A stretch of 64,000 bases of DNA from an uncultured Acetobacterium sp. (GTDB taxonomy: Bacteria; Bacillota; Clostridia; Eubacteriales; Eubacteriaceae), in assembly GCF_963664135.1 (NCBI RefSeq), contig NZ_OY760905.1, positions 1-64,000 on the forward strand, read 5' to 3'. Positions 36,821 to 52,851 of the stretch are shown piece after piece. The number at the start of each line of letters is the position of its first letter. Position 1 is the stretch's first letter. A model generated the notes under the pieces. It was not told where the DNA came from. It saw nothing but the letters and a program-made list of their open reading frames with translations, and ran no database searches. The translations under genes were made by a program, and so were the position numbers.

Positions 36821-37263
36821 GGGTACTTGACTTATTAGCAGAATTAGAAGAAGTCGTGGAAAAAGGAAACACGCTTCCCTTTTCATCTAAAGCGTTAGTA
36901 AATCCTGAAGAAGTTATAGATATCATTGACGAAATAAGAGATTCACTACCGGAAGAATTGGCGGAAGCAAAAAAAATAGTTGCAGAGCGAAAGAAAATCA
37001 TTTTTGCGGCACAGAGCGAAGCAGATCACATCAAAGCAGAAGCAGAAAAGCGATTAAGAGAATTAATCGACACCAATGAAATTACTAAAACTGCAACCGC
37101 AAATGCTAACGAGATTATGCGAAATGCTAATGCGAGTGCGAAAGCATTAAAAACCGGTACACAAAACTATGCCGATAAATTATTGTATAGTTTTCAAATT
37201 CAGTTAAAAGAAATGAACGATCAAATTGAACAGAATCGGCGAGAACTAAAAAACATGAAATAA
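36817..37263 (+). CDS. Coiled-coil protein of unknown function
   Basis: About 148 aa, highly charged and almost wholly helical: long coiled coil (about 45-148, AEAKKIVAERKKIIFAAQSEADHIKAEAEKR style) after an N-terminal helix MRVLDLLAELEEVVEKG. It resembles the ATPase/DivIVA-like coiled-coil proteins found after coaD in clostridia. I do not assign a function. Start chosen at 36817 (ATGA overlap with coaD, AGGAAGG site). Confidence 0.75.
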   Translation: MRVLDLLAELEEVVEKGNTLPFSSKALVNPEEVIDIIDEIRDSLPEELAEAKKIVAERKKIIFAAQSEADHIKAEAEKRLRELIDTNEITKTATANANEIMRNANASAKALKTGTQNYADKLLYSFQIQLKEMNDQIEQNRRELKNMK

Positions 37264-37277
37264 TTTGGTAAAACAAG

Positions 37278-37304
37278 GGTTGTGTGATGAACACGGCCTT
37301 TTTT
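37278..37304 (+). terminator. Terminator after recG-coaD group
   Basis: Stem GGTTGTGT / ACACGGCC (with two G-U pairs), loop GATGA, then six T. Confidence 0.75.
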
Positions 37305-37338
37305 ATGCCTATTCACTAAAATAAACGAGGTTTAAGAA

Positions 37339-38178
37339 ATGATAACAGTAGGAAAAGTACAAGGTTTAAAAATAGAACGGATTACAGCGATTGGCGCATA
37401 TTTATCTGATGGAACCGATGAAAAAGATGTGGTTTTGTTACCCGAAAAAGAAGTGTCAAGAAATTCCCGGGTTGGCAATGAAATTGAAGTGTTTGTGTAT
37501 CGTGATTCAAAGGACCGTCTGATTTCAACAATGCGGGAACCCAAAATTCAACTGGGTGAATTTGCAGTACTCAAGGTTGCTGATGTAACCAAGGTCGGAG
37601 CATTTTTGGATTGGGGATTGGAAAAAGATCTGTTGCTTCCCTATAATGAGCAAACCATGAAGGTACTCAAAGGACGCGATTATCTGGTTAATCTCTATAC
37701 CGATAAGAGTGACCGCTTATGTGCAACCATGAAAATATATCCATTATTAAAAGTAGGAGCACCCTACAAGGTTGGTGACTGGGTAGAAGGGTATGTCTAC
37801 CAAATTAATCCAGAGATTGGTGCCTTTGTGGCAATTGATAACTTATATCATGGATTGATTCTGACAAAAGACGCAAATTCGGATATTCATTGTGGGGAAA
37901 AAGTCCATGCCCGTGTAGCAGAACTTCGCAATGACGGAAAACTGGTTTTGAGTCCAAATAAAAAAGCATACAAAGAAATTCCCAAAGATGCCATTATGAT
38001 CCTGACAAAATTAAATGAAAGTCAAGGTTTCTTACCGTATAATGATAAAACCGACGCTTATATAATAAAAAAAGAATTAGATATGAGTAAGAGTTCTTTT
38101 AAGCGTGCAGTGGGTAAATTATTAAAAGAGAAAAAAATTAAAATTACGGAAAGAGGCATTGAAAAAAATGGAAAATAA
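37339..38178 (+). CDS. cvfB: CvfB/YitL family S1-domain RNA-binding protein
   Basis: A 279-aa protein with several S1-like domains (VKGxxRITAIGAYLSDG; FAVLKVADVTKVGAFLDWGLEKDLLLP; GDWVEGYVYQINPEIGAFVAIDNLYHGLI) and a C-terminal winged helix (about 212-279, LNESQGFLPYNDKTDAYIIKKELDMSKSSFKRAVGKLLKE). CvfB affects virulence-factor and RNA turnover in staphylococci. Overlaps the next gene. Confidence 0.88.
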   Translation: MITVGKVQGLKIERITAIGAYLSDGTDEKDVVLLPEKEVSRNSRVGNEIEVFVYRDSKDRLISTMREPKIQLGEFAVLKVADVTKVGAFLDWGLEKDLLLPYNEQTMKVLKGRDYLVNLYTDKSDRLCATMKIYPLLKVGAPYKVGDWVEGYVYQINPEIGAFVAIDNLYHGLILTKDANSDIHCGEKVHARVAELRNDGKLVLSPNKKAYKEIPKDAIMILTKLNESQGFLPYNDKTDAYIIKKELDMSKSSFKRAVGKLLKEKKIKITERGIEKNGK

Positions 38179-39343
38179 AAAATCTCGTGTCGTTATTATG
38201 GGCTGTGAGTCTTATGATAATGAACTGGTTTATGAAAAATTAAAAGCCGCCGTTGAACTTCTAGGAGGAATTGAACAGTTTGTCAATAACCAGGAGAGAG
38301 TTTTACTCAAACCGAATTTGTTAAGAGGGAAAAATCCGGATGCCAGTATTACTACCCATCCGGCTGTTTTTGAGGCCATGATTCGATTATTAAAAGAGGC
38401 CGAGATCAATCATCTATTCTACGGAGATTCGCCTGGCTTTGGATCACCAGCAGGCGCCGCCAAAGAGAGCGGTCTGGCAGCGATTGCGGATAAGTATGAA
38501 ATTCCATTAAAAGAATTCAGTCATGGCCAGCAAATGGATTTTTTCCTGGGAATTGGTACAAAGAAGTTTGATATCGCCCAGGGTGTGTTAGAGAGCGACG
38601 CCATTATCAGTTTGTCGAAAATGAAAACCCACGGTCTCACCCGGATCACGGGTGCGATCAAAAATCAGTTTGGCTGTGTCTATGGTTTAAACAAAGGAAT
38701 GTCTCACGCACATTATCCGAATGTGAGAAGCTTTTCTAAGATGTTGGTCGATTTGAACCGTTATCTTATTCCCAAATTGAGACTTTTTGTGATGGACGGC
38801 ATTGTTGCGATGGAGGGAAATGGTCCGGCATCCGGAAAACCGGTTCCGATGAAAGTCTTGCTAGTGTCAGATGATCCGGTGGCCTTGGATGCTACCTTTG
38901 CCAGAATGATTAACTTAGATCCGACCTTTGTCCCAACCATCACTTATGGCGAAGAAATGGAATTGGGTTATTGGTCTGAGGAAAACATTGAAATTATGGG
39001 AGAACCGCTGGAAAAATTTTATAAATCCGATTTTGATGTGGTGCGATTGCCAGTCAGTGAAAAAGAGCCATCAACACTTTCTTTTCTAAAACCGATTCAG
39101 GATTTTATTATTCAAAAACCGGTTGTGGATAAAGAAAAATGCATTGGCTGCGGTATTTGTGAAAAAAGCTGTCCGGTCGAGAAAAAAGCAATCCGGATCG
39201 TTGAACGAAAGCGTCGAAAATATCCCCTCTATTTCTATAATCGATGTATAAGGTGCTACTGTTGCCAGGAAATGTGTCCAGTTGGGGCAATTACAGTAAA
39301 AACCCCAATGCTTGGCAAATTAACGATTTATAAAAATAAATAA
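38168..39343 (+). CDS. DUF362 protein with two [4Fe-4S] clusters
   Basis: About 391 aa: DUF362 domain (about 5-280, VLLKPNLLRGKNPDASITTHP, FYGDSPGFGSPAGAAKESG, LSKMKTHGLTRITGAIKNQFGC) followed by a bacterial ferredoxin domain with CIGCGICEKSCP and CIRCYCCQEMCP (about 325-375). A redox or cofactor-related role is likely but the reaction is unknown. The ATG at 38168 has AGAGG 12 bp upstream; TTG 38159 would add three residues. It overlaps cvfB. Confidence 0.88.
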   Translation: MENKKSRVVIMGCESYDNELVYEKLKAAVELLGGIEQFVNNQERVLLKPNLLRGKNPDASITTHPAVFEAMIRLLKEAEINHLFYGDSPGFGSPAGAAKESGLAAIADKYEIPLKEFSHGQQMDFFLGIGTKKFDIAQGVLESDAIISLSKMKTHGLTRITGAIKNQFGCVYGLNKGMSHAHYPNVRSFSKMLVDLNRYLIPKLRLFVMDGIVAMEGNGPASGKPVPMKVLLVSDDPVALDATFARMINLDPTFVPTITYGEEMELGYWSEENIEIMGEPLEKFYKSDFDVVRLPVSEKEPSTLSFLKPIQDFIIQKPVVDKEKCIGCGICEKSCPVEKKAIRIVERKRRKYPLYFYNRCIRCYCCQEMCPVGAITVKTPMLGKLTIYKNK

Positions 39344-39397
39344 AATTGAGCGAATGCTAACAAACAAAAAACTGCTCGTTCAAATAAAAAAAAGACA

Positions 39398-39426
39398 TTG
39401 ACAAAGAGTCCGAAATTTAATATGAT
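39398..39426 (+). promoter_or_regulatory. Promoter of ilvBN
   Basis: TTGACA (39398-39403), 17-bp spacer, TATGAT (39421-39426). I see no T-box or leader peptide in the short leader. Confidence 0.8.
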
Positions 39427-39449
39427 AAGCGGAAATACTTAAAAAGGGA

Positions 39450-41096
39450 GTGATTCCACTGTTAGCATCAAAATTAATTTTAAAATGTCTCGAACGAGAA
39501 AATGTTGAGTTTGTGTTTGGTTATCCGGGAGGTGCTTTACTACCCCTCTATGAAGCATTTAGAACATCTCCGATTAAACATATTTTAGTGCGAAACGAGC
39601 AGACAGCACCGCATTATGCGAGTGGATATGCCAGAGAATCGGGACGTGTTGGCGTATGTTTGGCAACATCGGGACCCGGAGCAACCAATCTGGTAACCGG
39701 TATTGCAACCGCTTACCTTGATTCAATTCCAATCGTTGCCATTACTGGCCAGGTGGATCGGGCTTTGATTGGGACGGATGCCTTTCAAGAGGCTGATATT
39801 ACCGGAGCAACCGCTCCCTTTACCAAGCATAGTTATCTTGTCCAGGATGCAGCGGACATTCCAAGAATCATCAGAGAGGCCTTTCATATAGCTTCGACGG
39901 GTCGACCGGGACCCGTGCTGATTGATATCCCCAGAGATGTCCAATTGGAAAATGTCAAAACTGGACTGACTTATGATAAGGTCGATATTTTAGGATATAA
40001 ACCTAATCAAAGCGGCCATAGTGGCCAGGTCAAAAGAGCCATTAAAAAAATTAAAGAAGCCGATAAACCGGTTATTTACGCTGGCGGTGGGGTTGTCTTA
40101 GGTCACGCTGAAAAAGAACTGCTGGCATTTGCCGAAAAAAACAATATCCCGGTGATTACATCACTGATGGGTATCGGTGCTTTTCCTGAAGACCACCCGC
40201 TCTATTGCGGCATTGTTGGCAGTCATGGCTATACATATTCAAACGTGGTGATGAATGGGGCTGATTTGATTATCAATATTGGCGCGCGGATGTCGAATCG
40301 GGCAACTTCAAAACTCACGAGCTTTGAAAACAATACGGAATTCGTTCATATTGATATTGATCCAGCCGAAATCGGTAAAAATATGGAGACAAGTATTCCC
40401 ATCGTTGGGGACGCAAAAACAGTTTTAACCGATTTGTTACAAAAGGATACTTTAAAAGATCGTGCGTCTTGGCTGGCTGAAATAGACAAAATCAAGGAAG
40501 TAAATCCGCTGGTTTATGATGCTGATCCACCCTGCAGTGATTTAATTAATCCTAAGGTATTGTTCCGTTCCATGTCCGAAATCACATCAGATAATGCCAC
40601 TGTTGTGGCTGATGTTGGTTTAAACCAAATTTGGTCGGCGCTCTATTATCACATCATCAAAGATCGAAAATATTTTACATCGGGTGGCTTGGGTACCATG
40701 GGCTACAGCATTCCTGCTGCAGCCGGGGCAAGCTTTGCCACTTTAGATCAACCCAAACAGATATTCATTGTCTGCGGCGATGGCAGTTTTCAGATGAGTA
40801 TGGGAGAATTGGGTGTAATTGCCGAGCACCAATTGAATGTAAATATTATTCTAATTACCAATACCAAGCTGGGAATGGTAAGACAATTGCAATTTGATAA
40901 TTATGGAAAAGGTCATTACAGCGGTACCGATATTAATTTTGACATTGATTTTATGAAATTGGCTGAAGCTTATGGTATAAAAAGCTATAAGGTCGATAAA
41001 AACGATGACTTTAACAAGGTTTTACCTGAGGCTATTAAACATCAGGGTCCAACTTTGATACAATGTCAGGTTCATCCAGATTTCATAAGGATTTAG
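39450..41096 (+). CDS. ilvB: Acetolactate synthase large (catalytic) subunit
   Basis: A 548-aa TPP enzyme that joins two pyruvates (or pyruvate and 2-oxobutyrate) in branched-chain amino acid synthesis. It has the FGYPGGALLPLYEAF and RNEQTAPHYASGYAR (catalytic Glu) region, and the TPP-binding GDGSFQMSMGEL. The start is uncertain: GTG 39450 lies inside the AAGGGAGTGA ribosome binding site (39444-39453), so CTG 39459, well spaced, may be the true start (protein beginning LLASKLILKCL). The small subunit gene follows. Confidence 0.94.
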   Translation: MIPLLASKLILKCLERENVEFVFGYPGGALLPLYEAFRTSPIKHILVRNEQTAPHYASGYARESGRVGVCLATSGPGATNLVTGIATAYLDSIPIVAITGQVDRALIGTDAFQEADITGATAPFTKHSYLVQDAADIPRIIREAFHIASTGRPGPVLIDIPRDVQLENVKTGLTYDKVDILGYKPNQSGHSGQVKRAIKKIKEADKPVIYAGGGVVLGHAEKELLAFAEKNNIPVITSLMGIGAFPEDHPLYCGIVGSHGYTYSNVVMNGADLIINIGARMSNRATSKLTSFENNTEFVHIDIDPAEIGKNMETSIPIVGDAKTVLTDLLQKDTLKDRASWLAEIDKIKEVNPLVYDADPPCSDLINPKVLFRSMSEITSDNATVVADVGLNQIWSALYYHIIKDRKYFTSGGLGTMGYSIPAAAGASFATLDQPKQIFIVCGDGSFQMSMGELGVIAEHQLNVNIILITNTKLGMVRQLQFDNYGKGHYSGTDINFDIDFMKLAEAYGIKSYKVDKNDDFNKVLPEAIKHQGPTLIQCQVHPDFIRI

Positions 41097-41107
41097 GGAG
41101 AATGATT

Positions 41108-41605
41108 ATGGAAAAAAAAACCTGTTTATCTTTATTGGTAGAAAATAATTTTGGGGTACTAAGTCGCATTTCTGGGCTTTTTGCCAGACGTGGTTATAAT
41201 ATTGACAGTCTTACTGTGGGAACAACTGAAAATGCAGAGCTTTCACGGATTACTATCACTGTCACAGGTGATGATCAAATTCTGACTCAGATAAAAAAAC
41301 AGCTGAACAAACTGATTGATGTCATTACAGTAATTGAGCTGAAACCGGACGAATCAATTATTAGAGAATTGGTGTTTATTAAGGTGAAAGCCGATGATAC
41401 AACCCGATCTCAGATCGTCGAAATTGCTAATATGTTCCGGGCCAATATTGTTGATGTGGCCAGAGAGAGTCTCGTTATCGAAATTACCGGAACCCGTTAT
41501 AAAATCGAAGGCTTCTTTGAAATGGTTGAACCCTATGGCATTTTAGAGTTTGTTCGATCAGGAGATACCGGCTTACAACGGGGAGCAAAGATTTTATCCC
41601 ATTAA
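41108..41605 (+). CDS. ilvN: Acetolactate synthase small (regulatory) subunit
   Basis: About 165 aa with an N-terminal ACT domain (CLSLLVENNFGVLSRISGLFARRGYNIDSLTVG) and C-terminal ALS_ss domain (ELVFIKVKADDTTRSQIVEIANMFRANIVDV). It confers valine feedback control on IlvB. ATG 41108 is spaced best from AGGGAG (41095-41100); ATG 41102 also possible. It starts 11 bp after ilvB. Confidence 0.94.
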   Translation: MEKKTCLSLLVENNFGVLSRISGLFARRGYNIDSLTVGTTENAELSRITITVTGDDQILTQIKKQLNKLIDVITVIELKPDESIIRELVFIKVKADDTTRSQIVEIANMFRANIVDVARESLVIEITGTRYKIEGFFEMVEPYGILEFVRSGDTGLQRGAKILSH

Positions 41606-41640
41606 CGCAAACATAAATAAAAGAAAAATCGTCCAAACAT

Positions 41641-41690
41641 GACCGCTGGAAATTTATTTTCCAGCGGTCTATAACATTTACAGTTTTTTT
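41641..41690 (+). terminator. Terminator of ilvBN
   Basis: A 12-bp GC-containing stem (41641-41652 with 41658-41669), 5-nt loop, with a T7 tract a little downstream (41683-41690). Confidence 0.75.
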
Positions 41691-41703
41691 AATTATTTAC
41701 TTA

Positions 41704-41725
41704 AATTGTACGCAAATGTACAATT
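41704..41725. promoter_or_regulatory. Palindromic operator, Rex-like
   Basis: AATTGTAC and GTACAATT are perfect inverted repeats around GCAAAT. The inner TTGT-N10-ACAA has the 18-bp geometry of Rex operators (consensus TTGTTAANNNNTTAACAA), matching the outer bases but not the inner AA. It overlaps where the -35 box of the downstream promoter should lie. Confidence 0.5.
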
Positions 41726-41744
41726 TTTTCTACTAAAAAAAGTG

Positions 41745-41750
41745 TATAAT
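41745..41750 (+). promoter_or_regulatory. -10 box of the transhydrogenase operon promoter
   Basis: TATAAT 57 bp before the first gene. The matching -35 region is T-rich and poor, and overlaps the palindrome at 41704-41725, which suggests control by a repressor or activator. Confidence 0.55.
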
Positions 41751-41806
41751 TATAAAGAATAAAAAACAATAACTATAACTGCCGAAATTGAAAGGAGTTT
41801 TATTAT

Positions 41807-42385
41807 ATGAGTCAAGAAACACATGAACATCAGCACGAACCCGGCTGTGGCTGTGGTTGTCATGGGGATCAGCCCAACCCCTTTGTGGAACTTTCCCCGG
41901 TGCTGGATCACTACGCCGACATCCCCGGAAGTCTGATCACAATCCTCCAGAAAGCCCAGGAGCGCTACGGCTTTTTATCGGTGGAGCTGATGCGCCATAT
42001 TGCACAGGAAACCCACACCGCCATTGCCAGAGTTTACGGGGTTGCCACCTTCTACACCCAGTTCCGCTTTAAACCGGTGGGGAAACACCTGATCATGCTC
42101 TGCCAGGGTACCGCCTGTCACGTCAATGGCTCCAAACAAGTCGAAGAAGCCGTGATGGACTACCTCGATATCACCGAAGGTGAAACCACCCCCGATGGGC
42201 TGTTCACCCTGAACAACGTCGCCTGTCTGGGCTGCTGCAGCTTATCGCCGGTGATGATGATCAACGACGATACCTACGGCCAGCTGACCCGCGACAAGGT
42301 TATCAATATCCTAGCCGAATTAAAAGAAAAGGCCGGTGATGAAGGGATAGATTCAGAGACCAGTGCTCAGGAGGTAACCGCATGA
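41807..42385 (+). CDS. stnA: NuoE-like [2Fe-2S] subunit, Stn-type transhydrogenase candidate
   Basis: A 192-aa thioredoxin-like ferredoxin subunit: helical N-part (LITILQKAQERYGFLSVELMRHIAQ), RVYGVATFYTQFRF, and [2Fe-2S] ligands CQGTAC (99, 104) and CLGCC (140, 144). It would pass electrons to or from the NuoF-like partner. The N-terminus carries an unusual His/Cys stretch (HEHQHEPGCGCGCHGD, about 5-20). First gene of a three-gene unit with ATGA overlap to the next. The name follows the StnABC complex described in Sporomusa; it could alternatively belong to another HydABC-like bifurcating complex. GC-rich codon usage compared with neighbours. Confidence 0.8.
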   Translation: MSQETHEHQHEPGCGCGCHGDQPNPFVELSPVLDHYADIPGSLITILQKAQERYGFLSVELMRHIAQETHTAIARVYGVATFYTQFRFKPVGKHLIMLCQGTACHVNGSKQVEEAVMDYLDITEGETTPDGLFTLNNVACLGCCSLSPVMMINDDTYGQLTRDKVINILAELKEKAGDEGIDSETSAQEVTA

Positions 42386-44133
42386 AAGTGATTATCGGAT
42401 CAGGCAGCTGCGGCATCGCCGCCGGCGCCCACAAGGTGCAGACCGCCTTTGAAGCCATCATCGCTGAAAAAGGTTTAAATCTTTCCGTCGAACAAACCGG
42501 CTGCATCGGCACCTGTTATCTGGAACCCATTGTTGACGTGGTTGACGATGCCGGCAACAAAGTTACCTTCGTGAACGTCACCACCGACGATGCCCGGCGG
42601 ATCATTGACGATTACGTGATTGCCCAACAAGAACTGGCGGATTTACGGATCTCCCAGGAAGATCTCACGATGATCGGCAAACAGAAACGGATTGTTTTGC
42701 GCAACTCCGGGATCATCGATCCTGAGCAGATTGACGACTATCTGGCCGTTGATGGCTACGTCGCCGCCCGGAAATGCCTGACTGAAATGACCCCCGACGC
42801 GATTATCGACATTGTCAAAGTCGCCGGCTTAAAAGGACGGGGCGGCGCTGGTTTCCCGACCTGGTTCAAATGGGATGCCGCCAAAAAATCCCCCGGCACC
42901 ACCAAATATATGGTCTGTAACGCCGATGAAGGCGACCCCGGGGCCTTTATGGACCGCTCTGTCCTCGAAAGTGATCCCCATGCCCTGATCGAAGGGATGT
43001 TAATCGGCGCCCGGGCCATCGGTGCCAACGAAGGCATCGTCTACGTCCGGGCCGAATACCCCCTGGCCATTGTCCGGCTCCAAAAAGCCATTGATCAGGC
43101 CCGGGAAAAAGGCTACCTCGGCAACGACATCTTCGGCACCGGATTCGCCTTTGATCTGCGGATCAAAGCCGGGGCCGGGGCCTTCGTCTGTGGCGAAGAA
43201 ACCGCCCTGATCGCTTCATTAGAAGGGGAACGGGGGATGCCCCGGCTTAAACCACCCTTCCCGGCCCAGAAAGGCTACTGGAATAAACCTACCAACATCA
43301 ACAACGTCGAAACTTTCGCCAACGTCCCCTGGATCTTCCGTAACGGCGGCGACGCCTATGCTGCCCTGGGTACCCGGGAAAGTAAAGGCACCAAAGTCTT
43401 TGCCTTAACCGGCAAGGTCAAAAAAGGCGGCCTGGTCGAGATCCCCATGGGTCTGACCTTACACGATGTTATTTTTGACATCGGCGGTGGGATTAAGCAG
43501 GACAAAGCCTTTAAAGCCGTGCAAATGGGCGGGCCTTCCGGTGGTTGTATCCCGGCCAGTCTGCTTGAAACCCAAATTGACTACGCCGAAATCACCAAAA
43601 CCGGCGCCATTATGGGTTCCGGCGGGATGGTTGTCATGGACGAAACTACCTGTATGGTCGACATGGCCCGGTTCTTCCTCGACTTCACCTGTAAAGAATC
43701 CTGCGGCAAATGTACCTACTGTCGCGTCGGTACCACCCGGATGCTCGAAATCCTCAACCGGATCACCCAGGGCGAAGGCCGGGACGGCGACATCGAACTA
43801 TTAGAGGAACTTTGCTACAAGATCAAAGACGGTTCCCTGTGCGGCCTCGGTCAGACTGCCCCCAACCCGGTGCTGACCACCATCAAATATTTCCGAAACG
43901 AATATGAAGATCATATTTACAATCATAAATGTACCGCCAGAAGCTGTAAACCGCTGCTGACCTACACCATTGACAAAGAAAAATGCGTCGGTTGCGGCGC
44001 CTGTAAGAAGAATTGTCCCGTTGAAGCCATTACCGGCGAAAAGAAGCTAGTCCATGAAATCAATCAGGACATCTGCATCAAGTGCGGTAAATGCTTCACC
44101 GTCTGTAAATTTGATTCCGTCATCATTGACTAG
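42382..44133 (+). CDS. stnB: NuoF-like FMN/NAD(H) subunit, Stn-type transhydrogenase candidate
   Basis: 583 aa: N-terminal thioredoxin-like [2Fe-2S] domain (about 1-85, GSGSCGIAAGA, TGCIGTCYLEP), NuoF core with NADH/FMN site (about 110-430, GLKGRGGAGFPTWFKW from about 150, NADEGDPGAFMDRSVLESDP), the [4Fe-4S] motif SCGKCTYCRVGTTRM (about 440), and a C-terminal two-cluster ferredoxin (CVGCGACKKNC about 534, CIKCGKCFTVC about 564). This is the HydB/StnB architecture: the NAD(H)-reacting, possibly bifurcating subunit. Overlaps the NuoE-like gene by four bases. No hydrogenase subunit with an H-cluster is encoded nearby. Confidence 0.85.
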   Translation: MKVIIGSGSCGIAAGAHKVQTAFEAIIAEKGLNLSVEQTGCIGTCYLEPIVDVVDDAGNKVTFVNVTTDDARRIIDDYVIAQQELADLRISQEDLTMIGKQKRIVLRNSGIIDPEQIDDYLAVDGYVAARKCLTEMTPDAIIDIVKVAGLKGRGGAGFPTWFKWDAAKKSPGTTKYMVCNADEGDPGAFMDRSVLESDPHALIEGMLIGARAIGANEGIVYVRAEYPLAIVRLQKAIDQAREKGYLGNDIFGTGFAFDLRIKAGAGAFVCGEETALIASLEGERGMPRLKPPFPAQKGYWNKPTNINNVETFANVPWIFRNGGDAYAALGTRESKGTKVFALTGKVKKGGLVEIPMGLTLHDVIFDIGGGIKQDKAFKAVQMGGPSGGCIPASLLETQIDYAEITKTGAIMGSGGMVVMDETTCMVDMARFFLDFTCKESCGKCTYCRVGTTRMLEILNRITQGEGRDGDIELLEELCYKIKDGSLCGLGQTAPNPVLTTIKYFRNEYEDHIYNHKCTARSCKPLLTYTIDKEKCVGCGACKKNCPVEAITGEKKLVHEINQDICIKCGKCFTVCKFDSVIID

Positions 44134-44147
44134 AAAGGAGTGGGAGA

Positions 44148-47100
44148 ATGAAAAAATTTAAACTAAACATCGATGGAAAAGAAGTCACCGGCATTCCCGG
44201 ACAAACCATTTTAGAGCTCGCCCGGGAAAACGCAATTGATATTCCCACCCTGTGCTATGACGACCGTCTGGAGATCTATGGCTCCTGCGGCCTCTGTGTG
44301 GTGGAGGTACAAGGGATTCCCAAGATCCTAAAAGCCTGTGCCACCGAAATCAGCGACAACATGGTGGTCAGCACCCGGACCCCCCGGGTGATCGAATCCC
44401 GGAAAACCAATCTGGAGCTGCTGCTTTCCAAACACATCGGCGATTGTGTCGCTCCCTGTAAACGGGCCTGTCCCGGCACCACCGACTGCCAGGGCTACGT
44501 CGGCTTAATCGCCAACGGCGAATTCGAAGAAGCCCTGAAGCTGATCAAAGAACAACTGCCCCTGCCCGGGGCCATTGGCCGGGTCTGTCCCCATCCCTGT
44601 GAAGATGCCTGCCGTCGCGGCGACGTCGATCAGCCCATCGCCATCGCCTGGCTCAAACGCTTTGCGGCCGACTTTGATATGACCCATGAGATGTTTATGC
44701 CGGAAATCAAACCAGCCACCGGTAAATCCATCGGCATCATCGGTGGTGGTCCCGGCGGCCTCACCGCCGCCTACTACCTGATCCAGTCCGGCCATGCCGT
44801 CACCATTTATGACGCCATGCCCAAAATGGGCGGGATGCTCCGCTATGGCATTCCCGAATACCGCTTACCCAAAGGGGTCGTTGACGAAGAAGTGGGACTG
44901 ATCGAGGACATGGGGGTGGTCTTTAACAACAACACCCGCATCGGCGTCGATCTTCCCTTTGACACCATCCGCAAAAATCATGATGCCGTCTATGTCGCCT
45001 TGGGCGCCTGGACCAGCTCCGGGCTGCGCTGCGACGGCATTGATGCCAAGGGCGTTATCGGCGGGATTGAACTGCTGCAGCAGGTAGCCAATAACGAACC
45101 GATTACCCTTGGCGAAAAGGTCGCCATTGTCGGCGGCGGCAACACCGCCATGGATGCCTGCCGCACCGCCCTAAGACTCGGCGCCAAAGAAGTTTATAAC
45201 ATCTATCGACGAACTAAAGCCGAAATGCCCGCCGAGGCAATCGAAATCAGCGAAGCCGAAGAAGAAGGGGTGATCTTTAAAAACCTGACCAACCCCATTG
45301 AAGTCATTAAAGGCGAAGACGGCCAGATCGTTAAAATCCGACTCCAAAAAATGGCTCTCGGCGAACCCGATGCCAGTGGACGCCGCAGCCCGGTTCCGAT
45401 TGAGGGCGAAGAAGAGATCCTTGACATCGACACCCTGATTCTGGCCATTGGCCAGGGGATTAACCCGAACGGGATTGGGACAGCGAAAACAGAAGAAAAC
45501 GGTGATGACAACCGCCTGGCCCTGACCAAATGGAATACCGTGCTGGCCGATGAACAGACCTTCCGGACCAATCTCGACGGCGTGTTTGCCGGTGGCGACT
45601 GCATCAACAGCGGTGCCTCTATTGTGATTAAAGCCGTTGGCGATGCCAAAAAAGCCGTACCTTTTATCGAAAGCTACTTAAACGGCGAAACCATTGCCTA
45701 CCACGAACCCTACTTTGTTATCCGGGAAGCCGTTGATCAGGATTATCTGGAAAGCATCAAGAAAAACAAACGGCCCGCAATGACCCATTTAACCCCAGAT
45801 GCCCGTAACGATAACTTCCTGGAAGTGGTCGAAGGCTATAACCCCTTACAGGCCGTCGAAGAAGGGAAACGCTGCCTCGAATGCGGCTGTCAGGATTACT
45901 TTGAGTGTAAACTGATCGCCTATGCCAACGAATATAATGTTAAACCCGAACGGTTCAAGGGTAAAAACCCGGAAGCCAAAATTCAGGATGACCATCCTTT
46001 TGTCATCCGGGACAACAGTAAGTGCATCACCTGCGGCCTCTGTGTCCGGGTCTGTGACGAAATCGTCGGCGCCGAGGCCCTTGGCCTTGTTGACCGGGGC
46101 TTTGAAACCATTGTCGAACCGGCGCTGAGACAGCCGCTCAAAGATACCGGCTGCGTCAGCTGCGGTATGTGCATCTCGGTCTGTCCCACCGGTGCTCTAA
46201 GAGAAGGCCTCACCGGGATTAAACAGATCCCCATGAATACCGACAAAACCGAATCCACCTGCGGCTATTGTTCCGCCGGTTGTCAGATTGTCATTGAATC
46301 CAAGGGCGATACCATCATTAAAGCGATCCCGCAGAAAAATCACCAGGACATCAATCAGGGGGTCATGTGCGGTCGTGGCCGCTTCGGTACCAATCTGGTC
46401 CAGTGGGGCGATCGCATCACCACGCCGTTGATCCGAAATAAACAAGGTGAGCTGGAGGAAGCCACCTGGTACGATGCCCTGGTGACGATTGCCAAAAAAT
46501 CCCAGAGCATTGCCGCCCGCTATGGCGCTGATGCCGTGAAGATGGGCATTTCACCCAAGTATACCAATGAGGAAATCTATACCTTCACAAAGTTGGCCGA
46601 GGTGCTCCGGGCTGAGACCTTTAGCTTCAGTAACCGCAGTCACGGTGAAACCGATGTGCTTATCAATACACCGGGGATCACTGACATGAACGCCATTGTT
46701 ACTGCCGATACTATTCTGGTTCTCGGCATGCTGCCGGTGAACAATCCGATTGTCAAGTATAAGCTGTCCCTGGCATCAAAAAATGGTGCCAACATCTTTG
46801 TCATCAATCATCTCGAAAGCGGTTATGACCACATCGCTGATGAATTTATCACCGAATGTGATGATCTGGAGTTCTTGGGCGAAATCACCAAATATGTCCT
46901 GGAGAACAGCAACTCCAAAGCGGATTTGAAGAATCTGGACGTCTTAACCGCATCACTGGCTGACTTTGACATCTGTGATGAAGCTCAGATCATTGGTGAA
47001 GGACTGATCAATGCTAAAAACCTGGTTATCGTACTGGGCGACAAGTATATCACGGCTGAAGCTTCAGCTCTGGTGGGCGACATCCTCGGACTGCTGGGCA

Positions 47101-47687
47101 AAACAGACGGCAAACGTAGCGGCATTTTCAGAGTGGCTGTTAAGAACAACAGCATCGGACTGAATGCTCTGGGCGTTATCAAAACTCCAGAAGTTCTAAC
47201 GGTTGCCAAAGCGCTGCTGCTCTTTGGTGAAGATCCTAATGCCGATTTAAGCGGGTATGAATTCCTGATGGTCCAGGATACCCACCTGACCCAGGCGGCC
47301 GAAAAAGCCGACGTGGTGCTACCGGCGCTGGCCTTCCCAGAAGTGAACGGGACCTTTGTGAATACCGAAGGACGATTGTTGAAGGTTAAAAAAGCCGTAA
47401 GTAACTCGCTGGAACTCAATAATCTGAAAATGGCTCAAGCCATTGCGGATATCCTCTCAACTGATCTGGGATCAGCCTGTCCGGGAAAAATTTTAAAAGC
47501 AATTGGGGAAACCAATGATGCATTTAGAAATGTCGGAGTTGGCGAAATTCTCAGTTACCAGAAAACTGATTCAGCCGAGATTGCGCTCAAACCATATACC
47601 GAAGGACGTCTTTTCACTGAGATTCCCTATACGGATTATCTGATGAATGAGATTCAAGGGGAATTAAATAAGGTCATTAAACATTAA
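44148..47687 (+). CDS. stnC: NuoG-like / NfnB-like fusion, Stn-type transhydrogenase candidate
   Basis: 1179 aa in one chain. In order: [2Fe-2S] domain (about 1-80, CYDDRLEIYGSCGLCVVE); GltD/NfnB-like dicluster domain (about 100-170, CVAPCKRACP, CPHPCEDAC); FAD site GIIGGGPGG (about 195); NADPH site VAIVGGGNTAMDACRTALRLGA with a following YRR (about 324-352); CLECGCQDYFEC; ferredoxin domain CITCGLCVRVC (about 626) and CVSCGMCISVC (about 668); then a molybdopterin-oxidoreductase-like part (TCGYCSAGC about 703, MCGRGRFG) to the end. At the place of the catalytic Cys/Sec (about 825, SFSNRSHGETDV) there is neither. So NADPH is expected to react at the NfnB-like FAD and NADH at the NuoF-like subunit, with ferredoxin as third partner. 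AAAGGAG site. Confidence 0.8.
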   Translation: MKKFKLNIDGKEVTGIPGQTILELARENAIDIPTLCYDDRLEIYGSCGLCVVEVQGIPKILKACATEISDNMVVSTRTPRVIESRKTNLELLLSKHIGDCVAPCKRACPGTTDCQGYVGLIANGEFEEALKLIKEQLPLPGAIGRVCPHPCEDACRRGDVDQPIAIAWLKRFAADFDMTHEMFMPEIKPATGKSIGIIGGGPGGLTAAYYLIQSGHAVTIYDAMPKMGGMLRYGIPEYRLPKGVVDEEVGLIEDMGVVFNNNTRIGVDLPFDTIRKNHDAVYVALGAWTSSGLRCDGIDAKGVIGGIELLQQVANNEPITLGEKVAIVGGGNTAMDACRTALRLGAKEVYNIYRRTKAEMPAEAIEISEAEEEGVIFKNLTNPIEVIKGEDGQIVKIRLQKMALGEPDASGRRSPVPIEGEEEILDIDTLILAIGQGINPNGIGTAKTEENGDDNRLALTKWNTVLADEQTFRTNLDGVFAGGDCINSGASIVIKAVGDAKKAVPFIESYLNGETIAYHEPYFVIREAVDQDYLESIKKNKRPAMTHLTPDARNDNFLEVVEGYNPLQAVEEGKRCLECGCQDYFECKLIAYANEYNVKPERFKGKNPEAKIQDDHPFVIRDNSKCITCGLCVRVCDEIVGAEALGLVDRGFETIVEPALRQPLKDTGCVSCGMCISVCPTGALREGLTGIKQIPMNTDKTESTCGYCSAGCQIVIESKGDTIIKAIPQKNHQDINQGVMCGRGRFGTNLVQWGDRITTPLIRNKQGELEEATWYDALVTIAKKSQSIAARYGADAVKMGISPKYTNEEIYTFTKLAEVLRAETFSFSNRSHGETDVLINTPGITDMNAIVTADTILVLGMLPVNNPIVKYKLSLASKNGANIFVINHLESGYDHIADEFITECDDLEFLGEITKYVLENSNSKADLKNLDVLTASLADFDICDEAQIIGEGLINAKNLVIVLGDKYITAEASALVGDILGLLGKTDGKRSGIFRVAVKNNSIGLNALGVIKTPEVLTVAKALLLFGEDPNADLSGYEFLMVQDTHLTQAAEKADVVLPALAFPEVNGTFVNTEGRLLKVKKAVSNSLELNNLKMAQAIADILSTDLGSACPGKILKAIGETNDAFRNVGVGEILSYQKTDSAEIALKPYTEGRLFTEIPYTDYLMNEIQGELNKVIKH

Positions 47688-47760
47688 ATTTCCGTTTGTC
47701 TTGATGTCTCAAAATAGATTACTATATTAATCACAATAACTCGGAATAACCTGATATAGC

Positions 47761-47803
47761 AAAAGCACCGTTTTGATACCATACATATCAAAACGGTGCT
47801 TTT
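47761..47803. terminator. Strong bidirectional terminator
   Basis: An 18-bp perfect stem (47761-47778 with 47786-47803), 7-nt loop, with T-runs in both directions; it separates the transhydrogenase operon from the convergent gene at 47848. Confidence 0.9.
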
Positions 47804-47847
47804 TAGGATAAAAGAATTGAAACTAAAATGGTCGCTTATTGGTGAGG

Positions 47848-48150
47848 TTAATCTTCTTCACAAATCAACAAGAATAGCTCTCGGGCGACACCAGTAAGAT
47901 TGGTTTGATCTTCAAAGGATAGGTTTCGGATTTTGGCTACAATGGGATCATTTTCGGAATATAAGCGGTCAGCTTCCATCACGGTTTTCATTTGCGTTGG
48001 TGACATGTTTGTCAATTGATAGGAAGCCGGATTAAGGGTGATTCCAATCCGCTTTTCGTTTTTGACAAACTCAATCCGATTTCCACAAACAAGACCTTGT
48101 TCAAGGACGATCCAACCTTCATTTTGGGCTTTTGCTAATATTTTCTTCAT
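47848..48150 (-). CDS. Hypothetical protein, 100 aa
   Basis: A small soluble alpha/beta protein with a good AGGAGC site. It begins MKKILAKAQNEGWIVLEQG, has NRIEFVKNEKRIGITLNP in a predicted beta hairpin and an acidic C-terminus (LICEED). No family recognised. It lies 40 bp downstream of the DUF3169 gene on the same strand, so it may be co-transcribed with it. Confidence 0.65.
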   Translation of the reverse strand: MKKILAKAQNEGWIVLEQGLVCGNRIEFVKNEKRIGITLNPASYQLTNMSPTQMKTVMEADRLYSENDPIVAKIRNLSFEDQTNLTGVARELFLLICEED

Positions 48151-48190
48151 TGTTCGCAGCTCCTATTGAAACTATAGTATTGAAATAAAA

Positions 48191-48934
48191 TTATTGAACA
48201 TTGTCCAATTGACCATGTTGTAATTTGTTGGCGGATTTTGCATAAATCAGGGTTTGGGTAATCCATAAAAATCCGATCAGTAAATATGGAAAGACGCCAA
48301 TATTAATGACAATTGAAATAAGTAGAAAAAGGGTCATGACACCGCAGTAAACAAAATTCATGAGCTGGTAACAACGATAGGAAGCCTTGTAAATCACAAA
48401 TTTTTCGGCTTCATCACAGCTTTTAATCCATTCTTTATCAAAGTTAAAATCGAGTGGATTGCCTTTTTTCTCAGGGTATAAAATTTTTGTCAGCTTGATG
48501 GTAAGAACCGTCATGATTAGGGTAAAGGCAGTATTGAGCATAAAGAGAATTAGGCCAATAAGAACGGGTTCATTTAAAGCATTGGTAACAGTGATTCCAA
48601 ATAGACACAAACCACCGATCATGGTCGCTGAAATAAATGGCAGCAAAAATCCAAGTTGATGATCAATTTGATCAAAAAACGCATCATCATTTTGTTCTAA
48701 CCGTTTTAATTTGCGTTTAGCAGAGAAAAAGACAATTAATATAATTAGCGCACACAGCCCTAAAATAATGGATTGGATAAAATAATTATTTCTCAAAATA
48801 AAATTCTGAAAATTGATAATACTTTGGTAGATTACAACTTCAAAATGAATGAGGCTCCCGCCTAATAATCCTCCAAATATGGCTGAAATAGTGATAATTG
48901 ATAGAAATTTAAGAGTTGGTTTTTGTTTTTTCAT
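48191..48934 (-). CDS. DUF3169-type integral membrane protein
   Basis: About 247 aa from ATG 48934 (GAGGAG site). Six hydrophobic segments in three pairs (about 8-30, 42-62, 98-115, 120-145, 188-208, 212-230), with a charged loop (AKRKLKRLEQNDDAFFDQIDHQLG). It resembles DUF3169 proteins that accompany small XRE regulators in Firmicutes. The function is unknown. The start is 4 bp after the XRE stop. Confidence 0.78.
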   Translation of the reverse strand: MKKQKPTLKFLSIITISAIFGGLLGGSLIHFEVVIYQSIINFQNFILRNNYFIQSIILGLCALIILIVFFSAKRKLKRLEQNDDAFFDQIDHQLGFLLPFISATMIGGLCLFGITVTNALNEPVLIGLILFMLNTAFTLIMTVLTIKLTKILYPEKKGNPLDFNFDKEWIKSCDEAEKFVIYKASYRCYQLMNFVYCGVMTLFLLISIVINIGVFPYLLIGFLWITQTLIYAKSANKLQHGQLDNVQ

Positions 48935-48938
48935 AAAT

Positions 48939-49142
48939 TTACTCCTCTTCATATAAAAACAATTCTTCAACGGTTGTTCTAAAAACTTGAGCGATTTTTA
49001 GAGCCAAAATAACTGATGGTGAATAATCACCCCGTTCAATCAGACTGATTGTTTGTCGGGAGGCCCCGACCAATTTTCCCAAATCTGACTGATTCAGATT
49101 GTCTCGGGCGCGATATTGTTTTAAACGGTTTTCCAGTCCCAC
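48939..49142 (-). CDS. XRE-family transcriptional regulator
   Basis: A 67-aa Cro/C1-type helix-turn-helix protein (NLNQSDLGKLVGASRQTISLIERGDYSPSVILALKIAQVF). GTG start at 49142 after AAGGAGGT. It is paired with the membrane protein gene that follows. Three palindromes just upstream suggest self-control. Confidence 0.92.
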   Translation of the reverse strand: MGLENRLKQYRARDNLNQSDLGKLVGASRQTISLIERGDYSPSVILALKIAQVFRTTVEELFLYEEE

Positions 49143-49170
49143 AAGATTACCTCCTTGGCATCATTCAAAA

Positions 49171-49242
49171 TGACAATGATAATTGCTATAATGACAATTA
49201 AATTTGTCATTATTAGGATAACTCTGACAATTATAATTGTCA
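49171..49242. promoter_or_regulatory. Three phased operator-like palindromes
   Basis: TGACAATTATAATTGTCA (49225-49242) is a perfect 18-bp palindrome; 49192-49209 is a near copy with TGACAA/TTGTCA ends; 49171-49188 is a weaker copy. Centre distances are 21 and 33 bp, near whole helical turns. A minus-strand -35-like TTGACA (49243-49238) lies in the first site. Likely operators of the XRE protein. Confidence 0.7.
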
Positions 49243-49286
49243 AGCATTGTTTTTAAATTTATTCAATGTTCAATGCCCGATACTTT

Positions 49287-49295
49287 TGGTATAAT
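49287..49295 (+). promoter_or_regulatory. Extended -10 promoter of polA
   Basis: TGGTATAAT; the -35 region is weak. The polA start is 67 bp downstream. Confidence 0.55.
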
Positions 49296-49361
49296 GACTA
49301 TGTTTGTTTTATTGAGAAAAAAAGAATAAAAAAGAGATTGAAAAAAGAAAGTGAGTTCAGA

Positions 49362-52004
49362 ATGAAAAGTATCTTAATTGATGGAAATAGCTTGTTTTAT
49401 CGGACGTTCTATGCCATCCGAGAAATGTCCAATTCTAAAGGGGTACCAACAAATGCCATTTATGGTTTTGTTAACATATTAGTAAAAATACAGGAAGAGT
49501 ATCAACCAGATTATCTGGGGGTTGCTTTTGATTTAAAAGGACCCACTTTCAGGCATTTGGCTTACAAAGAATACAAGGGTGGCCGACATAAAATGCCAGA
49601 ATCCTTAGAAGAACAGTTTCCAATCTTGAAAGAGCTGCTATCTAAAATGAATATCGCCATTCTTGAGTTGGAAAGTTATGAAGCCGATGATATTATTGGA
49701 ACACTGGCCACAATGGGCTCAGAAAAAGGACTTGAAACTGAAATTATTACCGGCGACCGTGATGCCTTTCAGTTAGTGTGTGCAAATATAAAAGTACTCT
49801 ATACCAAAAAAGGTATTTCCCAATTGGACGAAGTCGATGAAGTCTGGATAAAAGAGCAATACGGGTTGGCACCCAAAGATCTGATCGACTTAAAAGCGCT
49901 CATGGGTGATAAGTCGGATAATATCCCTGGGATTGCCGGGATAGGAGAAAAAACGGCGATTAAGTTATTACAGCAATACGGATCACTGGAAAAGATTTAC
50001 GAAAACATTGAGGAACAAAAAGGCAAACAGAAAGAAAAAATCATTTCCGGGAAAGACGATGCCTTCATGAGCCGAATGCTGGGAACCATCAAACTGGATG
50101 TTCCCTGGGAAGGTGATTTTGAAGAATTGGCCTTTCACAATATTTTTAATGATGAAAGTATTGCTTTGCTTAAAGAATTGGAATTTAATACGCTCTTGTC
50201 AAAAATAGATGCGTCTGACGAAATCAAGATCATTGAAAAATCATTGGACTTTACTTGGATTAAAACAAACGCAGACATGGACAAATTATTTGAAAAGCTT
50301 TCGAAAACCAATGAAGTGATCATCTATTATCACCAGGAAGAAACACAGATTTATTTAGCATTGGGGATTGCACAGGATTATTACTATTTAAATCCTGAAA
50401 CGGTAGCGGGGCTGGAATTTTTTAATAAACTGAAAAAATTGCCAAATATCAATCAATTGGGCATTATCAGTCAGGACCTGAAGAATCTCATTCATATCCT
50501 TCATAAAAATGGCATCACTGAGGTCAACGAAGCGTTTGATACTTACATCGCGACCTATCTTCTGAGCCCAGGAGATCAACGCTATGATTTGAAGACAGCT
50601 GCCTTTAAGTACCTGAATCTGAGCATTCTGGATGATGAAGAGATGTTTGGAAAGGGTAAAAAAACAGTCCGGGCGGATGGATTGGATGAACAGTTGTTGG
50701 CAGATTATGTCGTTAAGAACTGTGAAACGGTAAAAAATTTAAAAACAGTGCTGGAAAAAGAGCTACATAAAACGGACATGATGACCTTATTTAAAACCAT
50801 TGAAATGCCCTTGTTGGAAGTGATGGTATCAATGGAAGAACTGGGGTTCAAAATCGATTTGACTCAATTAGAAGTTCTGTCTGAAGAATTTGAAAATAAA
50901 CTAAAAGGCTTGACCCGTGAAATATATGAACTGACTGAGATGGATGGGTTTAATATTAATTCGCCCAAACAATTGGGCGAGATCCTTTTTGAACAATTGA
51001 AATTGCCAGTGGTGAAGAAGACAAAAACTGGCTATTCAACCAACATAGAAGTGTTGGAACAATTAGTGCACTTTCATCCCGTTATCGAAAAAATCATTGA
51101 CTATCGCATGTTATCAAAGTTGGATTCAACCTACGGACGGGGGCTGATGGCCTTTGTTGAACCCGAAACTCATAAAATTTATTCAACCTTTAACCAAACG
51201 GTGGCAGCAACCGGGCGGCTTAGCAGTTCAAACCCGAATTTGCAGAATATTCCGGTAAAAACGGAAATGGGTCGGGAGATCAGACGGGTTTTTGTGCCGT
51301 CAGCTCCAGACCGAATTTTGGTTGATGCTGATTATTCCCAAATTGAGTTGCGGGTGCTGGCGCATCTCTCAGGTGATGAAAACCTGATTGATGCATTTAT
51401 CAAGGAGCAGGATATCCACACCCGAACCGCTTCGGAGATCTTTGGTGTTGCGCTTGACGCGGTCACCCGAACCCAGCGTGGTCAGGCTAAAGCCATCAAT
51501 TTTGGATTGATCTATGGTAAGCAGGCATTTAGTCTGGGAAAAGACCTTGGTATCTCTAGAAATGAGGCCCAGGATTATATCAACCGCTACTTTGCCCGGT
51601 ATCCTAAGGTACAGGCGTATATGGAAAATGTCAAGCGACAGGCCAAAGAAGAGGGATATGTCACTACCATCTGGGGGCGACGACGGTATATCCCCGAAAT
51701 GAATTCAAGAAATGGAATGCTTGTTCAGGCCGGTGAGCGCATGGCGCTCAATACACCAATCCAAGGGAGTGCCGCAGATATTATTAAGCTCGCGATGATT
51801 AAGGTATATAATCGCTTAAATGACGAAAATCTGGAAGCGGAACTAATTCTCCAAGTCCATGATGAATTAATCATTGATACTCCTAAAAACGAACAAGTAC
51901 GGGTGGAGCATCTGATAAAAGAAGAGATGGAAAGTGCGGCCCAACTCAGTGTTCCGCTAACGGTTGATGTAAACAGTGGGACTTCCTGGTATGATGTTAA
52001 ATAG
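49362..52004 (+). CDS. polA: DNA polymerase I
   Basis: About 880 aa from ATG 49362 (upstream in-frame codons from 49266 lack a site). 5'-3' exonuclease domain (about 1-290, LIDGNSLFYRTFYAI, ADDIIGTLA, GDRDAFQLV), a 3'-5' exonuclease fold lacking the DxE motif (region VIIYYHQEETQIYLAL), hence probably without proofreading as in other Firmicutes, and the family A polymerase (about 470-880) with VDADYSQIELRVLAHLSGD, RGQAKAINFGLIYG and VHDELI. Followed 12 bp later by coaE. Confidence 0.96.
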   Translation: MKSILIDGNSLFYRTFYAIREMSNSKGVPTNAIYGFVNILVKIQEEYQPDYLGVAFDLKGPTFRHLAYKEYKGGRHKMPESLEEQFPILKELLSKMNIAILELESYEADDIIGTLATMGSEKGLETEIITGDRDAFQLVCANIKVLYTKKGISQLDEVDEVWIKEQYGLAPKDLIDLKALMGDKSDNIPGIAGIGEKTAIKLLQQYGSLEKIYENIEEQKGKQKEKIISGKDDAFMSRMLGTIKLDVPWEGDFEELAFHNIFNDESIALLKELEFNTLLSKIDASDEIKIIEKSLDFTWIKTNADMDKLFEKLSKTNEVIIYYHQEETQIYLALGIAQDYYYLNPETVAGLEFFNKLKKLPNINQLGIISQDLKNLIHILHKNGITEVNEAFDTYIATYLLSPGDQRYDLKTAAFKYLNLSILDDEEMFGKGKKTVRADGLDEQLLADYVVKNCETVKNLKTVLEKELHKTDMMTLFKTIEMPLLEVMVSMEELGFKIDLTQLEVLSEEFENKLKGLTREIYELTEMDGFNINSPKQLGEILFEQLKLPVVKKTKTGYSTNIEVLEQLVHFHPVIEKIIDYRMLSKLDSTYGRGLMAFVEPETHKIYSTFNQTVAATGRLSSSNPNLQNIPVKTEMGREIRRVFVPSAPDRILVDADYSQIELRVLAHLSGDENLIDAFIKEQDIHTRTASEIFGVALDAVTRTQRGQAKAINFGLIYGKQAFSLGKDLGISRNEAQDYINRYFARYPKVQAYMENVKRQAKEEGYVTTIWGRRRYIPEMNSRNGMLVQAGERMALNTPIQGSAADIIKLAMIKVYNRLNDENLEAELILQVHDELIIDTPKNEQVRVEHLIKEEMESAAQLSVPLTVDVNSGTSWYDVK

Positions 52005-52016
52005 CAGAGGTGGGTT

Positions 52017-52619
52017 ATGAAGGTGATTGGTCTAACCGGAGGGATTGCATCAGGTAAATCCGCTGTTACCAATATTCTCAAAAAGCGGTTTAATTTTGTC
52101 GTCATTGATGCCGATCAATTGGCCCGACAGGCAGTAGAAGTTGGAAGCCTCGGTCTCCAAAAAATCATTGATACTTTCGGAGAAGGCATCTTAACTGAAG
52201 CGGGTGAATTGAATCGATTTAAGTTGGGCGAAATCATTGCCAATGACGACCAAGCCAGAAAAAAACTCAATGCCATTGTTCATCCGGAAGTACAAAAAAT
52301 TTACAATCAGGAAATCAGCATTTATGAGAATAAAGGGATGCCGGTGATAATTTATGACTGTCCGCTCCTTTTTGAAGCGAATTTGCAGAATACGGTGGAT
52401 CAGACAATTCTAGTTGTGGCGGACAAAGAAATTCGTATTAAACGAATTATGGAACGGGATGGTTTGAATCGAGAACAAGCTCAGAAACGAATTGATATGC
52501 AAATGCCAGATGCAGAAAAGATCGCTCTGGCAGATGTGATTATTGAAAACAACGGTAGTCTCGATGATTTGCTGATCAGCCTGGATCTGTATTTATCCAA
52601 TCGAAAACCATGGGCATGA
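52017..52619 (+). CDS. coaE: Dephospho-CoA kinase
   Basis: A 200-aa enzyme for the last step of CoA synthesis. GLTGGIASGKSAV P-loop (about 5-17), DADQLARQAVE, and YDCPLLFEANL. AGAGGTGGG site. polA-coaE is a common Gram-positive pair. Confidence 0.95.
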   Translation: MKVIGLTGGIASGKSAVTNILKKRFNFVVIDADQLARQAVEVGSLGLQKIIDTFGEGILTEAGELNRFKLGEIIANDDQARKKLNAIVHPEVQKIYNQEISIYENKGMPVIIYDCPLLFEANLQNTVDQTILVVADKEIRIKRIMERDGLNREQAQKRIDMQMPDAEKIALADVIIENNGSLDDLLISLDLYLSNRKPWA

Positions 52620-52692
52620 AAAATCAATCAATTAATTGAAACTAAAATAATTGAGAAAAAGAAAAAACTTGGGCGAAAAGTAAAAAAACATG

Positions 52693-52721: not shown

Positions 52722-52752
52722 AAAAAAACAGGGTAAAAAACCTGTCACTTAC

Positions 52753-52839: not shown

Positions 52840-52851
52840 ATTTGAAGTACA

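Follow-up and report, generated by a model that had tools for sequence, protein, structure and literature searches.

The first 64,000 nucleotides of the single 4,084,676-base contig (NZ_OY760905.1) of an uncultured Acetobacterium sp., hereafter the window, carry at positions 41807-47687 a three-gene set, stnABC, whose products match the electron-bifurcating transhydrogenase Stn of Sporomusa ovata. The set lies behind the acetolactate synthase genes ilvBN, and in one clade of the genus the same position is taken by nfnAB, the genes of a differently built transhydrogenase. We are highly confident of the joint reading, namely that the genes encode StnABC, that they occupy a slot behind ilvBN and that the slot was switched in place to an nfnAB of outside origin in one clade; the activity would follow from sequence and from analogy with the characterized enzyme. 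Stn identity and the general exclusion of Stn and Nfn are already published and are not new: Acetobacterium woodii (Awo_c21410) and A. bakii are listed as having Stn and lacking Nfn, and the two systems are described as almost mutually exclusive in 48 acetogen genomes (PMC7483475, Kremp et al. 2020). These are other species of the same genus, and the sections of that article consulted do not describe the ilvBN-polA slot or the exchange with nfnAB. The location of stnABC or nfnAB behind ilvBN is the new part of the finding, and none of the titles listed by literature searches describes an ilvBN transhydrogenase slot. The nearest precedent is reported for Sporomusa without Stn, where Nfn is present and HydABC stands at the Stn location (PMC12003927). 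It is a different exchange, and the neighbours in the window are ilvBN and polA. The locus comprises the following genes:

39450..41605, + strand: ilvB-ilvN (acetolactate synthase), left border of the slot (named from reading the proteins)
41807..42385, + strand: stnA, NuoE/HydC-like thioredoxin-fold [2Fe-2S] subunit, 192 aa, Pfam 2Fe-2S_thioredx (PF01257)
42382..44133, + strand: stnB, NuoF/HydB-like, 583 aa, predicted FMN and NAD(H) site, C-terminal ferredoxin-like domain
44148..47687, + strand: stnC, NuoG-like and GltD/NfnB-like fusion, 1179 aa
47848..48970, - strand: two open reading frames (ORFs) between stnC and polA
49266..52004, + strand: polA, which bounds the slot on its right side in much of the genus (from reading of the region)

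Among 19 genomes of the genus, with stnC called at E <= 1e-150, 16 have Stn and three have Nfn (G003, G005 and G014), and none has both. The three Nfn genomes are 99-100% complete, are without stnC and are the only ones to pass the NfnA cut-off, with NfnB adjoining. Their gene order is rsmD-coaD-(divIVA-like)-(S1-like)-DUF362-like-ilvB-ilvN-[nfnA-nfnB]-polA-coaE, polA following nfnB directly. Stn genomes show this order with [stnABC] over the length that their contigs or regions cover, and two more ORFs often precede polA, which is 4.6 kb away in G017 and about 12 kb away in G001. In the deepest Acetobacterium (G011, G012), stnABC stands directly after ilvN and polA is elsewhere. G015 and G004 each have two stnC-bearing contigs ending inside stnC, which suggests that a second stn copy exists whose 5' part is nearly identical.

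The same pattern extends to the family. In 40 genomes, searched at E <= 1e-100 for Stn and E <= 1e-60 for NfnA, 22 have Stn only, 15 Nfn only and none both; the remaining three have neither and are 91, 75 and 70% complete. Leaving out genomes whose contigs end at the genes (G004, G009 and G015 for Stn; G021, G027 and G039 for Nfn), ilvB-ilvN is followed by stnABC in 19/19 Stn genomes with a readable upstream side, and nfnAB follows it in 10 of the 12 Nfn genomes that can be read. One or two genes may separate the operon from ilvN. Upstream of ilvB, the gene block is conserved wherever it can be seen, except that DUF362 is missing in G029 and G031. Outside the family, tblastn at E <= 1e-8 placed ilvB/ilvN near none of 18 Nfn loci from 17 genomes. 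Of these loci, 17 extend several kb upstream and L277 less than 1 kb; they are an uneven sample drawn from the best matches to one query. Nor did the same search find either gene near any of 24 Stn loci, 14 of which reach 3.6 kb or more upstream of stnA. These are also an uneven sample, from a peptide-pattern scan in which family was judged by record titles (L035 is titled Eubacterium sp.). Entry of nfnAB by recombination through ilvBN flanks of the donor, which we had considered, has no support in these 18 outside Nfn loci.

Phylogenies place the change within Acetobacterium. The RpoB tree covers 36 of the 40 genomes, with no match in G006, G009, G021 and G032. Here the Stn lineages g1, g5 and g3 cluster (support of the joining nodes 71 and 78) and the Nfn lineages lie elsewhere. 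The three Nfn Acetobacterium are monophyletic (100) and branch from within the Stn lineages. The remaining inner Acetobacterium also make up a clade (88), which joins the Nfn clade with support 99 and G011/G012 with support 100. A tree of flanking genes (17 of the 19 genus genomes, each represented by 2 to 8 of the 8 genes) again unites the three Nfn Acetobacterium (100). The NfnAB tree of 46 sequences puts the Acetobacterium copies in one group (100) and the Nfn of lineages g2, g4 and g6-g9 in a separate clade (92), save one deviant second copy in G030. Constraining Acetobacterium NfnAB and 13 other family sequences to a single clade costs 101 log units and is rejected (approximately unbiased test, p 0.0005); an origin of Acetobacterium nfnAB within its own family was discarded on this ground. 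When 391 genomes of the class were searched with NfnB of the Acetobacterium clade, the nine best-scoring genomes all belonged to family f44, at 77-82% identity; NfnB of the own family is 69-75% identical to it and one deviant copy 62%. The donor was probably f44-like. G005 also contains a second nfnAB (G005:C1:37017-39277, L145), which groups more closely with the copy in the slot of G003 (support 96) than with the one in the slot of G005.

Since the Acetobacterium NfnAB falls outside the family Nfn clade and occupies the same ilvN-polA position, one clade would have lost stnABC and gained an outside nfnAB in place. On the sequences, this looks like in-place replacement of stnABC by a differently built nfnAB of outside origin. 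Alternatively, no replacement took place: an ancestor had stnABC and nfnAB next to each other behind ilvBN, and each lineage lost one of them. Such a state would explain the shared position without an aimed insertion, but none of the 40 family genomes carries both operons, and a copy retained from the ancestral family Nfn lineage fails as an explanation because the Acetobacterium-clade Nfn lies outside that lineage. We consider this history unlikely, although the ancestor may have had a second Nfn lineage, or the two operons may have stood briefly together at the site once nfnAB had been acquired.

Several observations weigh against in-place replacement in a fixed, exclusive slot. In two of the 12 readable Nfn genomes of the family (G019, G020), nfnAB is not behind ilvN. 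The distance between ilvN and the operon is 2.1-2.4 kb in one Nfn genome (G036) and two Stn genomes (G002, G013), and about 1 kb in g3 and g5, with one transporter-like ORF in those inspected. If Stn and Nfn were independent, 8.25 of the 40 genomes would be expected to carry both, and the probability of none, 2e-8, ignores kinship and is hence descriptive only; two Stn/Nfn changes suffice on the RpoB tree. Clostridium magnum and C. carboxidivorans are reported to carry both systems (PMC7483475). Four f44 genes stand next to Acetobacterium NfnAB with a support of only 64, and a firm grouping with f44 was dropped on this account.

The three ORFs of the set lie in tandem on the + strand, with stnA and stnB overlapping by 4 bases. 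Pfam recovers Complex1_51K, NADH_4Fe-4S and Fer4 in StnB, which also contains a GRGGAGFP motif, and Fer2_4, Fer4_20, Pyr_redox_2, Fer4_Nqo3, Molybdop_Fe4S4 and Molybdopterin in StnC. StnC is divided as follows:

44148..44450, + strand: residues 1-101, [2Fe-2S] domain (PF13510), with Cys 36, 47, 50 and 64 common with S. ovata
44451..45692, + strand: residues 102-515, GltD/NfnB-like domain for FAD and NADPH, as predicted from Pfam and alignment to S. ovata
45873..46208, + strand: residues 576-687, NuoG-like 4Fe-4S relay, 12 Cys common with S. ovata
46242..47684, + strand: residues 699-1179, FdhF/NuoG-like molybdopterin-enzyme domain, from Pfam, phmmer and alignment

Solved structures were compared subunit by subunit, using phmmer against Protein Data Bank chains. 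The best matches are 9bov_A (E 4.3e-299, 998 bits) and 8oh5_C (E 3.2e-277, 926 bits) for StnC, 8oh5_B (E 4.5e-271) followed by the 9bov complex (897 bits) for StnB, and 9bov_C (E 2.3e-53, 184 bits) and 8oh5_A (E 6.1e-51) for StnA. Entries 9bov/9bp5 and 8oh5/8oh9 are thus the top two for every subunit, and 9n5u ('NfnA/B/C') is third. The chains of 9bov/9bp5 are named molybdopterin oxidoreductase, NADH dehydrogenase (quinone) and 24 kDa subunit; we take this complex to be NfnABC of Caldicellulosiruptor. Hydrogenase, complex I and formate dehydrogenase chains score below the Stn-type entries for all three subunits. By these scores, the match of the three genes to Stn-type complexes is far beyond chance.

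StnABC of S. ovata (8oh5/8oh9; PMC7483475, PMC10482914) has the same three subunits with the same domain order. StnB is identical to its counterpart there at 396 of 580 aligned residues (68.3%), with 21 cysteines common and four of S. ovata not. For the first 700 residues of StnC, the values are 350/685 (51.1%), 24 and four, and four more cysteines towards the C terminus (705, 708, 712, 741) make up one 4Fe-4S set retained in the FdhF-like domain. The cysteines of StnA were compared through the HMMER alignment to 9bov_C, and all cysteine comparisons were made by alignment. C114, K170 and R239 are the same residues, with the same numbers, as in S. ovata StnC, where they were mutated by Kumar et al.; K170, at cluster C7, is called strictly conserved in StnC and is Glu in NfnB (PMC10482914). 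Within Acetobacterium, StnC is 99% identical to that of an Acetobacterium sp. metagenome-assembled genome (MAG), 95% to that of an A. woodii MAG, 84% to G017 and 80% to G001. Two features fit Stn less well: divergence from S. ovata StnC grows towards the C terminus, with 43/97 residues identical in the first stretch of the C-terminal part, and the phmmer alignment of StnC stops near residue 1103 of 1179.

An earlier sequence-only reading of this DNA had proposed a Stn-type operon of NuoE-like, NuoF-like and fused NuoG/NfnB-like subunits. The ORFs and Pfam domains confirm the arrangement, subunit make-up, architecture, key residues and nearest solved structures agree with StnABC, and 8oh5 and 9bov proved to be the two best solved relatives of each subunit when the proposed comparison with StnABC was made. 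The domains also match the predicted NADH site in the NuoF-like subunit and NADPH site in the GltD/NfnB-like FAD domain. Its 'at least eight' Fe-S motifs was a cautious count, given the 12 clusters (1 + 4 + 7) of S. ovata Stn (PMC10482914) and the largely common cysteines in the StnB and StnC regions compared.

The same reading had excluded an H-cluster and a formate active site and had named best matches to a hydrogenase or formate dehydrogenase set as contrary evidence, which the lower scores of such chains for all three subunits do not bear out. The H-cluster motif, by its usual patterns, is absent from StnA, StnB and StnC, and the Cys-His pair of formate dehydrogenases aligns to Ser831-His832 of StnC. 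We take this Cys (or Sec) to be the ligand of molybdenum, so its position is occupied by Ser831 in StnC. An electron-bifurcating formate dehydrogenase, or a set resembling one, could be suspected from the Molybdop_Fe4S4 and Molybdopterin domains of StnC, from the alignment of its residues 604-887 to a formate dehydrogenase alpha chain and from the 8oh5 StnC chain itself, deposited as 'Formate dehydrogenase-O, major subunit'. Against this, besides Ser831, the best formate dehydrogenase chain reaches 217 bits with StnC versus 998 and 926 for the Stn-type chains, and StnC scores 176 bits with TIGR01591 versus a cut-off of 666, which a paralog at 3.83 Mb passes with 828. Formate oxidation was assayed in S. 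ovata Stn and none was seen (PMC7483475). We regard this identity as extremely improbable. The bifurcating hydrogenase HydABC has a next to vanishing probability: StnA and StnB closely resemble chains of HydC and HydB and are the counterparts of HydCB, but the H-cluster subunit has no counterpart in the window, every Hyd chain is outscored by Stn-type chains for each subunit and a HydA-type set sits at 1.51 Mb of the same genome (L068; named from reading the proteins). Both identities were rejected on active-site residues and scores. Stn and Nso are described as highly similar (PMC7483475), and a non-bifurcating NADPH-dependent sulfur or oxygen oxidoreductase like Thermococcus NsoABC is also very unlikely, if a little less so. 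StnC is full-length, including the FdhF-like domain and its 4Fe-4S cysteines, Stn occupies the same slot as the transhydrogenase NfnAB without ever accompanying it in the 37 family genomes with either, and Nso itself has been suggested as a possible transhydrogenase (PMC7483475).

As a Stn-type enzyme, the complex would interconvert NADPH, NAD+ and oxidised ferredoxin with NADP+, NADH and reduced ferredoxin, by electron bifurcation or its reverse. By analogy with S. ovata, NADPH would reduce the FAD in the GltD-like part of StnC, and electrons would be relayed through the StnC clusters to the FMN in StnB and then to NAD+ and ferredoxin. The flavin at which the S. ovata enzyme bifurcates electrons is the FMN of StnAB rather than the NfnB-like FAD in StnC (PMC10482914). 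NfnAB catalyses the same overall reaction (PMC10482914) and occupies the same chromosomal slot in related genomes, but it consists of two subunits, bifurcates at the NfnB FAD and has no NuoE-, NuoF- or NuoG-like parts; NfnB of G014 is 41% identical to the GltD-like part of the window StnC. The two operons would do the same job. In the cell, StnABC would most likely run mainly towards NADPH for biosynthesis, and the site behind ilvBN might perhaps serve NADPH supply for amino-acid synthesis. The suggestion that the enzyme is central to redox balance goes beyond what is shown.

The molybdopterin-like end of StnC would be catalytically dead and structural; in S. ovata, deletion of the FdhF-like domain destroyed the complex (PMC10482914). 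Six of 22 StnC frames examined (L034, L036, L037, L038, L040 and L041) end at 674-680 aa, at about the start of this domain. They come from five MAGs titled Clostridia, Ruminococcus, Ruminococcaceae or Oscillospiraceae bacterium. The FdhF-like domain was not found elsewhere on these loci, and two full-length controls gave it. By their sequences, these would be natural Stn enzymes without the FdhF-like domain.

The enzyme being known, the locus adds one member, and the swap is the useful part: close relatives within one genus use either Stn or Nfn, encoded at one and the same site and flanked by the same genes. It provides a natural experiment on interchangeability, mutual exclusion and the cost of the choice to an acetogen at the energy limit. 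Tentatively, and as something possible rather than probable, the family may keep a dedicated slot where two bifurcating enzymes are swapped as whole transcription units, even from outside, because the cell would need one, and only one, reversible coupler of NADH, NADPH and ferredoxin in that place and at that dose, two being harmful. The slot also suggests a native site for transhydrogenase exchange in engineered acetogens.

The region between ilvN and stnA contains three short elements:

41641..41669, + strand: hairpin just after ilvN, found by eye, putative terminator
41742..41750, + strand: GTGTATAAT, putative extended -10-like element before stnA
41791..41797, + strand: AAAGGAG, ribosome-binding-like sequence before stnA

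Seven of 19 readable Stn regions were aligned, plus the three Nfn regions. By eye, a like hairpin stands behind ilvN in five of the seven Stn and two of the three Nfn intergenic regions of the genus, and a shorter one in G003. The element GTGTATAAT is present in all seven Stn regions and absent from the three Nfn regions. The exchanged pieces would be whole transcription units, lying downstream of a putative ilvBN terminator. Promoter and terminator scans of 41500-48300 gave 13 sites versus 6.6 (standard deviation 2.3) in shuffles and 10 versus 9.2 (3.8), respectively, and list neither the -10-like element nor the hairpin. A candidate redox-sensor operator before stnA (palindrome TTGTAC-N6-GTACAA) was dropped; by eye, it occurs in the window and G018 and not in G017, G016, G007 or G001. 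Rfam over 35000-53000 yielded only a tRNA at 52753-52836.

The rest of the genome agrees with the description of the organism as a Rnf-type acetogen lacking classic NfnAB. An rnfC followed by rnfD is present (L001; named from reading the proteins), and acetogen status follows from the genus. No NfnA over the cut-off was found in the genome (best 88 bits versus 220), nor in the stn operon, and no stand-alone NfnB; with the gltA/NfnB model, StnC itself scores highest, at 331 bits versus a cut-off of 471.75. There is one full-length StnC match, and no second Stn copy was found in the genome. GltD-like proteins at 540 kb, 797 kb and 2.98 Mb were set aside because they are not StnC-like in length and order.

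Further redox-related sets are found elsewhere in the genome. At 3828.3-3833.8 kb (L066:2348-7764), a second NuoE-like/HydB-like pair precedes an 897 aa protein, which is over the cut-off of TIGR01591 (formate dehydrogenase alpha) with 828 bits and has ARVCH intact; this set is likely an electron-bifurcating formate dehydrogenase. A GltD-like Fe-S flavoprotein of 902 aa at about 539.9-545.1 kb (L064:3868-9098) adjoins HypB-like and oleate-hydratase-like ORFs (named from reading) and, compared by description, may be similar to the IsrA-type protein involved in isoprene reduction by A. wieringae (PMC10134865). At about 796.2-799.0 kb (L065:5158-8022), a 720 aa protein in which a HydA/NuoG-like N terminus is fused to a GltD-like domain lies next to a 229 aa protein resembling a NuoF C terminus or ferredoxin and to a flavoprotein reductase-like ORF, and could represent a small Stn-like assembly without NuoE and NuoF cores. 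Finally, three pairs of a short NuoF-like protein (open frames of 417-418 aa) and a 487-492 aa Fe-S protein are located at 549-555 kb (L064) and 2551-2562 kb (L067), those at 549-555 kb adjoining molybdopterin oxidoreductase-like ORFs.

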